Positions 15,848 through 21,010 of a DNA stretch of 64,000 bases are shown here, piece by piece; the first letter of the stretch is position 1; each line of letters starts with the position of its first letter. This DNA is from Chelativorans alearensis (GTDB lineage Bacteria; Pseudomonadota; Alphaproteobacteria; Rhizobiales; Rhizobiaceae). Both the position numbers and the translations under genes were made by a program. The DNA lies in assembly GCF_010993735.1 (NCBI RefSeq), contig NZ_WQNI01000006.1, positions 124,001 to 188,000 of the forward strand. Direction: 5' to 3'. The notes under the pieces were generated by a model. That model was not told where the DNA came from. It searched no databases and saw only the letters and a list, made by a program, of their open reading frames with translations.

Positions 15848-16624
15848 ATGAGATCTGCGACCGAGCCGTGGTCCCTGTCGGGAACCATCGAAGAGTCGTC
15901 CCGTCCTCGACTAAAGGCGTTTATCATTCATCTGAAGCGTGCGGTAGAACGCCGACCGCAGGTCGAAAGGCTGGTTGCGGCGCTGCCTATACCGGCAGAA
16001 ATCGTGGATGCCGTCGACGGAGAGTGTCTCGATGTGGCGGAAGCCGGCAAGGTCTACCGTCCTCGTCTTCACAATCCCCGTTATCCATTCCGGCTGAGCA
16101 AGAGCGAAATCGCCTGCTTTCTCTCGCATCGCAAGGCATGGCAGGCGATCGTCGATCAGGAGCTCGATGCCGGCTTCGTTGTAGAAGACGATGTCGAGCT
16201 CGACGAATTCTTCCCGCGCTCCTTCGCCAGTGCTTTGGCGTGCCTGGAGCCGGAAGATTTCGTGCGCTTTCCGTTCCGCGCGGACCGCGAGGCCGGGCCG
16301 GAACTTTTCAATGACGGCAAAACGCGCATCATCGCGCCGAGCCCCGTCGGATTGGGCATGGTGGCACAGCTCGTGGGCCGAAGCGCGGCCCGGCATCTTC
16401 TCGCCGCAACGCAGCGGTTCGACCGGCCCGTCGACACGACCGTTCAGATGAAATGGGTAACCGGCGTCGCGCCCAAGTCGGTCGTACCGGGTGGCGTGCA
16501 CGAAATTTCCCGCAAGCTTGGCGGCAGCATGATCCGGCGGAAGAAAACGGTGCCTGACAAGCTCCGCCACGAGATTCTGAGGCCGCTTTACCGGATCAGG
16601 ATCGCGATCCGATCGCGCAGATAA
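15848..16624 (+). CDS. GT25-family glycosyltransferase (LPS/LOS biosynthesis)
   Basis: A 258-residue cytoplasmic glycosyltransferase. GT25 signatures: AFIIHLKRAVERRPQVERLV at ~24-43, VDAVDGE, the LSKSEIACFLSHRKAWQAIVD block (~82-102), the VVEDDVELDEFF nucleotide-sugar DxD region near 112, and a late GGSMIRRKK tail. The family adds galactose or similar sugars to lipooligosaccharide. The first ~22 residues are not conserved-looking. GAGGAAA precedes the start. It is followed after 13 bp by a polysaccharide deacetylase gene, so the pair probably modifies a cell-surface glycan. Its less biased codon use and position beside rnpB suggest an accessory gene. Confidence 0.85.
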   Translation: MRSATEPWSLSGTIEESSRPRLKAFIIHLKRAVERRPQVERLVAALPIPAEIVDAVDGECLDVAEAGKVYRPRLHNPRYPFRLSKSEIACFLSHRKAWQAIVDQELDAGFVVEDDVELDEFFPRSFASALACLEPEDFVRFPFRADREAGPELFNDGKTRIIAPSPVGLGMVAQLVGRSAARHLLAATQRFDRPVDTTVQMKWVTGVAPKSVVPGGVHEISRKLGGSMIRRKKTVPDKLRHEILRPLYRIRIAIRSRR

Positions 16625-16637
16625 GGTACAAGACCGC

Positions 16638-17366
16638 ATGCCGGCTCCGATCTTGCTCTACCATCAGATCGACATTCCGCCATCCCGGCGGACCCCCTTC
16701 CGCAGCATGGTGGTGCATCCGCATGCATTCCGCAATCAGATGCTCTGGTTAAAGCGGCTCGGCTACAGGGGTCTCTCGCTCCGCGAAGCCATGCCCTACA
16801 TTCGTGGAGAGCGGACCGGGAAGGTCGCTGCGATCACTTTCGACGACGGCTTTCTCAACGTGTTCGAGAACGCTCTTCCGGTATTGCGGGAATTGGGTTT
16901 CACGGCGACCGGCTTCTTCGTGGTCAGCCAGATCGGCGGCAGCAACGAATGGGATAGGGTAATCGGCGTTCCCGAAGCTCGCTGCATGTCGGCGGCCCAA
17001 TTGCGCGAATGGGCAGCGCTTGGCAACGAAGTGGGCTCGCACACGCTCGATCACGTGCACCTGCCGGAGCAGCCGGCGGATGAAGCCAGGCGCCAGATTG
17101 TCCGCTCGCGCGGCATGCTCGAGGATATTCTGGGAGAGGAGGTGCTTTCCTTTTCTTACCCTTACGGACAGGAAGGAGAAAGATGCCGCCGGATGGTTCG
17201 GGAAGCGGGATATCGTTACGCCACAACAACCCGCCGCGGCAGCGCAGGGCCCGGTGACGATGTCTTCGGGCTTCCACGCGCCACGGTACGGCGCAATGAC
17301 ACATGGCTGCACTTTTTGAAGAAATGTCTGGCGGGGTACAGTTCAGCCCCGGCGTCGATGGATTGA
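16638..17366 (+). CDS. polysaccharide deacetylase (NodB/CE4 family)
   Basis: A 242-residue CE4 metalloenzyme that removes N- or O-acetyl groups from polysaccharide. NodB motifs: TFDDGF (motif 1, catalytic and metal Asp, ~residue 68), SHTLDHVHL (motif 2, His ligands, ~135) and SFSYPYGQ (motif 3, ~167). The N-terminus ILLYHQID is typical of the exported family, but no signal peptide is visible. It lies 13 bp after the GT25 gene with no terminator between, so a joint role in a surface glycan is likely; the substrate is unknown. Confidence 0.88.
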   Translation: MPAPILLYHQIDIPPSRRTPFRSMVVHPHAFRNQMLWLKRLGYRGLSLREAMPYIRGERTGKVAAITFDDGFLNVFENALPVLRELGFTATGFFVVSQIGGSNEWDRVIGVPEARCMSAAQLREWAALGNEVGSHTLDHVHLPEQPADEARRQIVRSRGMLEDILGEEVLSFSYPYGQEGERCRRMVREAGYRYATTTRRGSAGPGDDVFGLPRATVRRNDTWLHFLKKCLAGYSSAPASMD

Positions 17367-17511: not shown

Positions 17512-17922
17512 ACCAGCCGGTCGGACGGCCGCACGCGCAAGCGCCGAAAGGCCGCGCGTGAGGAAAGTCCGGGCTCCAAGGAAACACGGTGCCGGGTAAC
17601 GCCCGGCGGGGGTGACCCCAGGGAAAGTGCCACAGAAAGCAGACCGCCCGGCAAAGCCCGAAGGGCGAAGCCGGGTAAGGGTGAAAGGGTGGGGTAAAAG
17701 CCCACCGCGCGCCTGGCGACAGGGGCGGCACGGCAAACCCCACCGGGAGCAAGACCGAATAGGAACGGCATGAAGGGAAACCTTCAAGGGCGGTTTCCGG
17801 CCCGGCCGTTCGGGTAGGTTGCTTGAGGCCGGCGGCAACGCCGGTCCCAGAGGAATGGTCGTCACGTCGCACAGCCCACGGGCCGTGCGGCCATACAGAA
17901 CCCGGCTTACAGACCGGCTGGT
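17512..17922 (+). ncRNA. rnpB: RNase P RNA, bacterial type A
   Basis: The catalytic RNA that trims tRNA 5' leaders. The ends pair as P1: ACCAGCCGGTC (17512-17522) with GACCGGCTGGT (17912-17922), followed by TTTTTCTTTTT as terminator. The universal P4 strands are present: GAGGAAAGTCCGGGCTCC near 17562-17580 and ACAGAACCCGGCTTACAG near 17895-17912. Other marks are the CACAGAAAGCAGACCGCC block with GGTAAGGGTGAAA and the TAGGAACGGC-like J regions. At ~411 nt its length fits Alphaproteobacteria. The position shortly before mraZ is the usual rhizobial one, but two extra genes intervene here. Confidence 0.95.
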
Positions 17923-17969
17923 TTTTCTTTTTGCATAGTGGGCGGTACGGCCCTGTCTCTTAATCGGCT

Positions 17970-19133
17970 CTAATATGCCCTGCGAAGGGAGATAAACCCG
18001 CCGGTCTGGTGATAGTCGTAGATGTCGACATTGCTGTCGCGCCGCTCGTGGAAGACCGTCAATTCCGGCTTGATCCCTTTCCATTCCAGCCGGTCGTGGG
18101 CGATGGAGAAGGAGGGGCGCACCGTTACGTCCTTCCGGTTCAGCCTCCAGAACGGATCATATTCGGTGAATCTCGTCCAACTCGCCGACAGGCTCGGCGA
18201 CAGGTTCCAATCGCCGAATTTCATGTCCAGCCCGACGGTCGTGCTTGGCCTGTAGTAGGTGTAGTAGTCGTTGACGCCGTTCAGGTGCTCCAGCGAGGCA
18301 TTCCAGAAGAAGGTCGCGTTCGGACGGAACGTCCAGTCGCCAAACAAATAGGGCCTGTAAAACTGGCCCGATCTGTCGTGGTCCTTGGAAAACGTATAGC
18401 CGACGTCGCCACCCAGGCCGATCCGGCTCGTCGAGGACAGGGTAAAGCGCCGCCAGGCGCCGAGCGTGGGGCGTATAAAGGGGCTGTCCTCGTTCAGTTC
18501 CGCATCCATGCTCGCCTCGACAAACAGCTTCGAGGGCAGCATGCGGCCGACGGAGAACTGGCCGCGCAACACGTTGAGCCCGTCGCGCTCGAAAAGCCGC
18601 GCGTTGCCGTTGAACTTGGTCAGCACGCCGTTGTCCCAAAGCTTCTCGACGGAAAGCCACGGCTCGAGACCGTGTGCCAACCTCCGTGGCGAGGACGGTT
18701 CGTACTCGAGCGGAATTCCGTTGAAGAAGATCGTCCCGCCCGAGGGGGCTCGGGCGGGATTGCTGTCGCTTACGATTCTGGCGCCGAAGCGGACGCGCAG
18801 AATGTGCAGCTCCGCCTCTTCGATGAAGGGCAGGATGTTGCGCTTGACCGCCTTTGGCGTGCTGGGGTGGTCGTACACTTCCCGGAAAAGCGCCAGCGCC
18901 TGCCTGAATTCGCCGACGCTGAAATAGGACCGCGCGAGCTCCAGCTTTATCCGCGCGGTCGGGACTGTCCCCAGCAAGTGGCGATAGTTGCGGATAGCGA
19001 TATCGTGCCGCCCGGCCTGGGCGGCAGACAGGCTTTCCTTGAAGATGGCGTCGGCTTGTTCGGGGGCCAGCCTCTCTGCGTTCGCTACCGTACTGAAGAC
19101 AAGACAAAAGGCGAATGCAGCCAGTATCTTCAT
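17970..19133 (-). CDS. Slam-like outer-membrane protein (surface lipoprotein assembly modifier, type XI secretion)
   Basis: A 387-residue exported protein with signal peptide 1-19 (ending ANA-ER). Residues ~25-115 are TPR-like helices with the Slam pattern: YRHLLGTVPTARIKLELARSYF, GEFRQALALFREV, then the PKAVKRNILPFIEEAE bridge. The remaining ~270 residues alternate aromatic/hydrophobic and polar residues as in an outer-membrane beta-barrel and end in a terminal aromatic (RRAY). Slam proteins (DUF560) move lipoproteins to the cell surface. The gene directly follows a TbpB-like lipoprotein gene (stop TAA, one base, ATG), the usual cargo-then-translocon order. Assignment is from pattern, not alignment; a generic porin is the alternative. 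Confidence 0.75.
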   Translation of the reverse strand: MKILAAFAFCLVFSTVANAERLAPEQADAIFKESLSAAQAGRHDIAIRNYRHLLGTVPTARIKLELARSYFSVGEFRQALALFREVYDHPSTPKAVKRNILPFIEEAELHILRVRFGARIVSDSNPARAPSGGTIFFNGIPLEYEPSSPRRLAHGLEPWLSVEKLWDNGVLTKFNGNARLFERDGLNVLRGQFSVGRMLPSKLFVEASMDAELNEDSPFIRPTLGAWRRFTLSSTSRIGLGGDVGYTFSKDHDRSGQFYRPYLFGDWTFRPNATFFWNASLEHLNGVNDYYTYYRPSTTVGLDMKFGDWNLSPSLSASWTRFTEYDPFWRLNRKDVTVRPSFSIAHDRLEWKGIKPELTVFHERRDSNVDIYDYHQTGGFISLRRAY

Positions 19134-19134
19134 A

Positions 19135-20031
19135 TTACTGCTTCTTGGCCCCGTAGCCTCCGTAGTACCGCTCGATGCCGTCGCCTTTCACGGCGAACGT
19201 GCCGCCGACTTCCTGGGCGCCCGGGCCATAGAAACGGCCGTCGATCTTACCGGTCATGCCGTTGGCGGTGCGGACATTACCAGACATCTCGTTGCTTCCG
19301 GCCGAGTAGGTCATGGTGCCGGTGAGGTCGAGATGATCCTTCGCAACGCCTCCCAAGGATTTCGTGTCGTCGGTTTTGAAGTCCACGGAACGCCTTGCAA
19401 AATCAGCATTCAACGTCGCCTCAGACGTCATGTAATGCCATTCGGGAATGTTGCTTTCGTCGTAGTCGATATATTCTCCCCCCGCAGTCCCTTTGAATGT
19501 CGCTTTTCCAGACGAGGGAATGTTGGCCACCGGCGTGTCGGATCCTATGCTTGCCGCTCCGATGTTGGCCTCGGATACTACGAAGTCACGTTCGAACCAC
19601 GTGCCATAAGTCTGATACTCAAACCCGTCGGCTCCCGGTTCGGCAAAAGCGATGTCGATCTTATCGTCTTTCGACTCGAGGGACAGGAATTTCCCATCGT
19701 CTGAAATTGATGAATATTCAGATATATTTTCTTCATTAAGAACCTTCTTCGATGTTGGCGTCGTTAATGCAATCGACGTTATGTCTCCATCGGAATTCGT
19801 TGTTACTTCTGTGGAGACTTTTGCGCTCGAGAAGGATGTCAATGCAAAGTCGCTGTCGTCCTCGCCGGTGGCCGTGGCCTCGCGTCCCTTTCCCTTAATC
19901 GTGGTGGTCTCGCCGGCCTTCATTTCGGCGAAACTCGTGAAAGTGGGGCCGTCAGGGCCGCCGGGACCGCCCGATCCCCCGCCGCATCCTGCAAGTGCGA
20001 ATGGAAGAATAAGAAAAAACAGCTTTTTCAT
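19135..20031 (-). CDS. TbpB/factor H-binding-type surface lipoprotein, candidate Slam cargo
   Basis: A 298-residue lipoprotein. Lipobox LAGC (Cys-16) is followed by a Gly-rich tether (GGGSGGPGGPDGP). The C-terminal ~130 residues resemble the TbpB beta-barrel domain, with LTGTMTYSAGSNEMSGNV and the hallmark GRFYGPGAQEVGGTFAV seen in TbpB, hemophilin and similar proteins. These bind transferrin, haem carriers or host factors; the ligand here is unknown. The gene is visibly richer in A and T than its neighbours, has TTGGAG 10 nt before the ATG, and is cotranscribed with the Slam-like gene. It looks horizontally acquired. Confidence 0.78.
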   Translation of the reverse strand: MKKLFFLILPFALAGCGGGSGGPGGPDGPTFTSFAEMKAGETTTIKGKGREATATGEDDSDFALTSFSSAKVSTEVTTNSDGDITSIALTTPTSKKVLNEENISEYSSISDDGKFLSLESKDDKIDIAFAEPGADGFEYQTYGTWFERDFVVSEANIGAASIGSDTPVANIPSSGKATFKGTAGGEYIDYDESNIPEWHYMTSEATLNADFARRSVDFKTDDTKSLGGVAKDHLDLTGTMTYSAGSNEMSGNVRTANGMTGKIDGRFYGPGAQEVGGTFAVKGDGIERYYGGYGAKKQ

Positions 20032-20545: not shown

Positions 20546-21010
20546 ATGGATCGGTTCTTATCCAGTGCGATCAACAGGATCGACGCGAAGGGGCGGGTCT
20601 CCGTGCCGGCTCACTTCCGCTCCGTGGTGCAGAGGCGCGGCTTTGCCGACCTCTACGCGCTGAGGGCGCTGGATGTGCCGGCGATGGATGTGGGCGGCCC
20701 GGACCTGCTCGACCGCTACGAGGAGCGGATCGCGGTGGAGGACCCGTTCCTGCAAACGGCGGACGACATGTCCTTCTTCGTCCATGGCGACGGCAGCTTC
20801 CTGAAACTGGACCAGGACGGGCGCATTACCGTAACGGACTTCGTTCGCGAGCATACGGGGATTACATCGCAGGTCGCCTTCGTGGGGCGCGGCCTCTTCT
20901 TTCAGATATGGGAGCCGGAGCGGCTCAGTGCCCACGGCGCGCAGGTTCGCGCACGGCTCTTGAAATTGCGGCAGCAGGCCTCTCAGGCCCGGGCCGCAAG
21001 TACGGAATGA
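20546..21010 (+). CDS. mraZ: transcriptional regulator MraZ
   Basis: A 154-residue member of the AbrB-like MraZ family, first gene of the dcw cluster. The paired DNA-binding halves are visible: [22 protein letters not shown] at the N-terminus and [18 protein letters not shown] (the second, degenerate repeat) near residue 90. MraZ forms ring oligomers and represses dcw transcription through repeated TGGG sites; a matching array covers the presumed promoter ~170 bp upstream. The stop overlaps the rsmH start (ATGATGA context), giving coupled translation. Confidence 0.93.

Follow-up and report, generated by a model that had tools for sequence, protein, structure and literature searches.

A probable type XI secretion (Slam) pair in Chelativorans alearensis whose cargo handle varies, probably by recombination

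Type XI secretion systems (T11SS) are the closest described counterparts of the gene pair treated here. In the reconstituted Slam1-TbpB system, Slam is an outer-membrane translocon for unfolded cargo and is helped by the holdase Skp (PMC9090332). The cargo plan set out in the cited sections of PMC12282271 consists of a barrel, a pedestal and a variable N-terminal effector. Predicted T11SS are also known from the environment, among them subcluster 1C of the Sphingomonadaceae and water- and soil-associated clusters (PMC8406197), as well as a marine cluster 3, whose conserved locus encodes, near an OMP gene, an SPII lipoprotein cargo (282-375 aa) that forms an 8-strand barrel (PMC12282271). T11SS proteins predicted for bacteria of soil, water and the sea have already been published (PMC8406197, PMC12282271); the point added here is a nearly fixed translocon against a changing cargo front, in a divergent compact Slam group. 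A search of the open-licence literature found no paper that links DUF560 to Rhizobi, Sinorhizobium to surface lipoprotein assembly, or surface lipoproteins to Chelativorans.

The window, meaning the whole stretch of 64,000 nucleotides of Chelativorans alearensis that was analysed, carries between rnpB and mraZ two minus-strand genes that very probably form a type XI secretion (Slam) unit, with a cargo handle that varies, probably by recombination. The cargo lipoprotein gene (19135..20031, minus strand, 298 aa) is recognised by PF01298, a lipobox and a fold model with its matches, and the compact Slam-type T11SS outer-membrane protein gene (17970..19133, minus strand, 387 aa) by PF04575, a model and a profile-profile match. 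In the coupling junction TAA-T-ATG (19131..19137, minus strand), the single base 19134 separates the lipoprotein TAA from the ATG of the Slam start, which is exactly the one-base spacing given in the initial annotation. On one side of the insertion site is the convergent RNase P RNA gene rnpB (17513..17925, plus strand; RF00010, 296.8 bits), and on the other is mraZ (20546..21010, plus strand; NF001477, 201.1 bits). A promoter and terminator scan found 2 and 4, versus 0.9 and 3.0 expected. Open frames of a glycosyltransferase family 25 gene and a polysaccharide deacetylase gene adjoin rnpB (window 15848-17366), and at their place in Chelativorans salis, a species of the same genus (L041:7912-8370), only short fragments match.

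The cargo comprises a signal peptide with lipobox (residues 1-16), a Gly-rich tether (17-30), a handle or effector (31-169) and a TbpB_B_D barrel (170-298), and fits the barrel, pedestal and effector plan mentioned above. The signal peptide and lipobox MKKLFFLILPFALAGC were read by eye, with an LAGC lipobox and Cys16; the Gly-rich stretch lies at residues 17-29 and the block GRFYGPGAQEVGG at residues 265-277, all three being present as the initial annotation had named them, the last as a C-terminal TbpB-like block. The profile search proposed there for the lipoprotein gave a full-length match to PF01298 (TbpB_B_D; E 4.9e-11, profile positions 1-126 of 126, residues 171-297) at 43.7 bits, above the cut-off of 26. 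A TbpB-type 8-strand barrel, on which that reading depended, is further visible as eight strands at residues 176-297 of a low-confidence model (pLDDT 39), and fold matches agree with a barrel domain at residues ~170-298 (19138..19524, minus strand). The best 50 of 707 Foldseek matches to this model (E <= 10) are TbpB, LbpB, fHbp, NHBA or haemophore entries, and so are the 50 VIA matches listed, with 3hoe, among the listed fold matches, titled merely 'surface lipoprotein'. The PDB sequence search returned NHBA (GNA2132) as best match, at E 0.006, or E 0.011 with a profile. The cargo holds one PF01298 stretch in 298 aa and not the two handle-barrel lobes of TbpB, and FHBP_C scores 23.3 bits, below the cut-off of 28.1 for membership in the factor H binding proteins. 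The handle itself is acidic (net -15), rich in Ser/Thr and has zero histidines.

The Slam protein shows a signal-peptide-like start, a short TPR-like helical region (residues ~24-113) and a predicted barrel (~114-387), with an aromatic C-terminal residue. It had been described as a TPR plus beta-barrel protein with the Slam (DUF560) pattern, and this pattern stands, PF04575 (SlipAM) being matched at E 1.4e-8 and 35 bits (cut-off 22), over profile positions 184-286 of 288 and within the C-terminal third of the protein. The TPR part is fainter, with no model at its cut-off (TPR_16 20.9 versus 32.7 bits, E 4.8e-4 at residues 32-87; TPR_Slam 17.3 versus 35.2 bits, profile positions 52-100 of 104), and the equivalog NCBIfam NF041636 slam_lipo reaches 42.4 bits versus a cut-off of 80. 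A profile of four compact Slams nevertheless aligns with one of 16 cargo-paired Slams across query residues 29-387 (probability 99.1; E 1.2e-18, which applies to one single comparison, made with 16 of the 21 paired Slams and with N-termini trimmed to an inner Met), and the TPR-like region falls on the same region of the paired Slams. The structure model, built from a two-row alignment (pLDDT 36), has helices at residues 24-116, with pLDDT about 40-64 for residues 21-110. At E <= 0.001 Foldseek matched nothing to this model, and the 50 matches listed include no outer-membrane barrel. A crude script counted 17 amphipathic peaks, and with so poor a model a barrel of 14 strands is no more than putative. 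In the PDB sequence search, the matches were to proteins of TPR or PPR type, with some further weak ones. This Slam is shorter than, and very divergent from, the Neisseria-type Slams.

The compact Slams of the window, C. salis, genome G238 and S. meliloti have 387-390 residues, and four of the five group members have a cargo homologue immediately upstream. The fifth, in G232, is a 341-aa open frame; its match starts at residue 67, the first part of the frame being without a match, and the contig ends about 270 bases past the frame. A TbpB_B_D cargo stands beside the Slam in C. salis and G238 (PF01298 in both) and in S. meliloti (by annotation and homology), the junction being a one-base gap in C. 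salis and a 4-base overlap in G238 (GTGA, with a GTG start inferred) and S. meliloti. The S. meliloti Ak57 pair (LZK74_32475/32480, in a record from Medicago nodules) is annotated as a transferrin-binding protein-like solute binding protein and a surface lipoprotein assembly modifier, and its Slam is about 48-51% identical to that of the window. In a 32-row tree, a long branch (100/100) sets the five compact Slams apart, and Slams encoded by Alloyangia and Salipiger plasmids are their nearest kin there (95/97); the tree left out the family frames L027 (140 aa) and L030 (318 aa) and Slam hits without an extracted frame, and used N-termini trimmed to an inner Met. These plasmids (L090, L091) belong to the same replicon cluster and have in common a cargo-Slam block that also holds genes for an alpha/beta hydrolase and a peptide transporter, with hydrolases that are 77% identical. 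A conserved alpha/beta-hydrolase partner was considered and rejected, the S. meliloti hydrolase having no significant similarity to those of the plasmids. The 3.7 Mb record CP090106.1 (L089) goes by the name pSymB; with genes for primosomal protein N' and an ATP synthase subunit on it, it may be the chromosome under a wrong name.

Across 297 genomes of the family, PF04575 is matched in 40 and PF01298 in 20. A PF01298 partner lies within 5 kb of 21 of the 44 PF04575 hits, and a PF04575 partner within 5 kb of 22 of the 30 PF01298 hits (one of the 30 being below cut-off), while at least two unpaired hits (G238:C40, G232:C31) are near contig ends. This pairing, repeated in the kind of neighbourhood survey that had been suggested, is far above chance for domains so rare, and neither family was found in 14 control genomes. 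Together with the family matches, domain order and gene spacing, the pairing in relatives supports the initial reading of a TbpB-like lipoprotein with a Slam-like partner. In another family member, G225 (L008, L045), four TbpB_B_D matches occur on three contigs, and at least two of them adjoin glycine- and aspartate-rich repeat frames that look RTX-type by eye. A compact-Slam profile (E <= 1e-10) matched two of 397 genomes of the order, the window genome and G329, the latter at positions 20-148 only.

The window genome also contains a second Slam-cargo pair (C3:77751-79568), with a canonical Slam (C3:77751-78605) that is 20-25% identical to the first and far away in the tree. This pair (436 and 348 aa; L005:8749-11184) is unrelated to the first. 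It adjoins genes reading as lon and clpX by eye; on its other side lies a frame that matches sigma-70 region 4 weakly (E 0.0017, below cut-off) and, further on, a 403-aa frame that is integrase-like by eye and has no Pfam match.

Within the genus, the Slam search found the protein in full in two of 16 genomes, those of the window and C. salis, and a match of 97 residues at 29% in G302. The rnpB-mraZ intervals of the 14 other genomes yielded neither gene (tblastn, E 1e-3), and by hit ends they span about 330-870 bases, whereas the window interval measures about 2,620 and that of C. salis 2,800. The interval of the closest relative, G281, is about 400 bases on one contig. The downstream flanks of the window and G281 are 95.9% identical (13,463 aligned bases), versus 91.6% for the window and C. 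salis (6,866) and 91.9% for G281 and C. salis (6,864), which makes the window and G281 nearest kin. Absence of the pair in G281 is therefore less likely to be the ancestral state; its loss there would be the simplest account of these alignments, with two separate gains at the same site as a possible alternative.

Between the window and C. salis, divergence is uneven. The Slams are 90% identical and the cargos 62%, and by part the cargo identity is 80% for residues 1-30, 47% for the handle (31-169), 64% for barrel residues 170-242 and 84% for 243-298. At the level of nucleotides (120-base windows), identity is 0.93-0.96 beside mraZ, 0.64-0.79 just upstream of the cargo gene and 0.82 in the tether, and it sinks to 0.56-0.64 across the bulk of the handle. 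It recovers to 0.71-0.78 over the first barrel half and, from the end of the cargo gene onward across the Slam, lies at 0.86-0.97. Divergence falls after about cargo residue 236-242: synonymous differences at same-residue codons number 49 of 132 in cargo 1-242, and 50 of 382 when cargo 243-298 and the Slam are taken together (Fisher p 1.4e-8), a cut picked after seeing the data. When the position of a single break is instead optimised, so that this choice is allowed for, the best break falls after codon 236, and none of 5000 permutations gives one as strong. The background in flanking genes varies (mraZ 10/147, DjlA 40/217, ftsI 114/528), at 0.07-0.22 and below 49/132. The handle differs in synonymous change from the Slam (p 2.6e-6) and from the whole barrel (p 0.011), and the whole barrel does not differ significantly from the Slam (19/90 versus 46/337, p 0.098), with 15 of 45 in 170-242 and 4 of 45 in 243-298. 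Misalignment could inflate the figure for the handle, less so that for barrel residues 170-242.

Base composition changes in the same part of the gene. The cargo gene had been noted as AT-richer than its neighbours, and is so, its GC being 0.544 where the Slam gene has 0.608 and the window 0.66; this is limited to the first ~242 codons (third-position GC 0.50-0.63, then 0.81). Third-position GC of the handle is 0.59 in the window and 0.52 in C. salis, and that of the barrel end is 0.81 in both, so the step falls near the divergence break in both alike. It is small in S. meliloti (0.75, 0.78, 0.81), and in G238 (0.55, 0.63, 0.63) it lies elsewhere, the G238 Slam gene itself being at 0.55. The window handle has almost as low an identity to C. 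salis (0.47) as to S. meliloti (0.42), versus about 90% and 49-51% for the Slams, which agrees with replacement of a cassette. The transfer that the initial annotation drew from the AT-rich cargo is not favoured as a recent transfer of the whole pair, the Slam gene being within the range of its neighbours in third-position GC (0.82) and in dS to C. salis (0.20; mraZ 0.094, DjlA 0.296, ftsI 0.347); what survives of it is a probable replacement of the outer part of the cargo. The divergent block (residues ~31-242; 19306..19941, minus strand), delimited by identity, synonymous change and GC, would be the product of a recombinational exchange in one lineage or in both, since the synonymous break and the third-position GC step are at about the same place. 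This mosaic reading comes from one close species pair and is unpolarised.

Several other explanations can be weighed against these data. It is highly improbable that the 387-aa protein is a member of some other helical-plus-barrel family and lies beside a TbpB-like lipoprotein by chance, the lipoprotein then being periplasmic or reaching the surface by another route, such as the second Slam. The PF04575 match in the last third only, a weak match to DUF2860 below cut-off (E 0.0019) and the presence of that canonical Slam speak for it; PF04575 is nevertheless above its curated cut-off in this protein and in three relatives (36.5 bits in C. salis, 43.5 in G238 and 54 in G232), the profile of its group follows the paired-Slam profile nearly from end to end, and the upstream cargo recurs in the group. 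A role in scavenging iron or haem, of the haemophilin or TbpB type and in the service of a TonB receptor elsewhere in the genome, is doubtful for the unit. Haemophilins (8glo, 7rea, 6om5) are among the closest listed fold matches, although these matches span residues 148-298 and the handle is barely probed by them. Haem is ligated by histidine(s) in haemophilin (HphA); the window handle is free of histidine, and no histidine is conserved across the four aligned cargos of the compact group, in an analysis in which the second cargo was trimmed by 30 residues. The genome has five Plug-domain TonB receptors; none is near either pair, the nearest being about 58 kb off and none on the contig of the second pair. 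No iron box was found in the window with an Irr-type pattern. Cluster 1 T11SS genes do co-occur with haem and metal pathways, according to the part of PMC12282271 cited.

A true T11SS pair may also have a cargo handle that diverged by fast positive selection alone, the comparison here covering one close species pair. The handle is the most divergent part of the protein, at 47% versus about 90% for the Slam, which would suit a binding region exposed to the outside. If the mutation rate is ordinary, selection acting on residues leaves synonymous change unraised, whereas here it is raised above the flanks, and third-position GC shifts near the same point in both species; selection alone is thereby disfavoured, and we regard it as improbable. 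For recombination, we tentatively propose, with slightly less than even confidence, that in environmental rhizobial relatives the compact Slam and roughly the last quarter of the cargo, where its barrel ends, are kept near-fixed at a chromosomal site, while divergent alleles swap a cassette made up of the handle and the first barrel half. The cassette would perhaps include the upstream region, and one of its edges would lie some 25 residues before the conserved GRFYGPGAQEVGG. Recombinational diversification of this kind is known for meningococcal surface lipoproteins. For the Hyphomicrobiales bacterium of the window, we know of no animal host or other animal link, and if such exchange takes place, phages, predators, plants or competitors would be its driver.

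In the type XI secretion unit that we favour, the lipoprotein would be made first and lipidated after Sec export, and the lipidated, unfolded chain would be handed across the periplasm. The helical-plus-barrel Slam would recognise the C-terminal 8-strand barrel of the cargo and move it through the outer membrane, and by analogy the Slam1-TbpB route may apply to this pair. The cargo would stay lipid-anchored with its acidic handle outward, and this handle, presumably the part touching the environment, would vary between related strains, probably by recombination, with the barrel end, junction and translocon nearly fixed. With the translocon at 90% and the handle at 47%, the contrast points to the part on which specificity and selection may act. 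Should delivery depend on nothing but the barrel end, each Slam would be expected to accept either of the two natural cargos. The window pair, its S. meliloti relative and the second pair offer small systems for the role of Slam cargo without an animal host.

Like the Slam-TbpB and Slam-SLP systems of Neisseria, Moraxella and Pasteurella, as presented in the cited parts of PMC5449769 and PMC9090332, the window has a TbpB-barrel lipoprotein beside a PF04575 protein, with the cargo gene adjacent to the translocon gene. Unlike those systems, its Slam is shorter and very divergent, its cargo has a single lobe with an acidic handle, and there is no nearby TonB receptor. As in the environmental T11SS clusters (PMC8406197, PMC12282271), the PF04575 protein is not known to occur in an animal host. 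Marine cluster 3 loci often come with DUF1194 and rarely with a TbpB-type barrel gene (PMC12282271), whereas DUF1194 has no match in the eight window proteins scanned. A further likeness is the S. meliloti Ak57 pair (cargo 41%, Slam 48%), whose frames overlap by 4 bases and whose genomic neighbourhood differs from that of the window.
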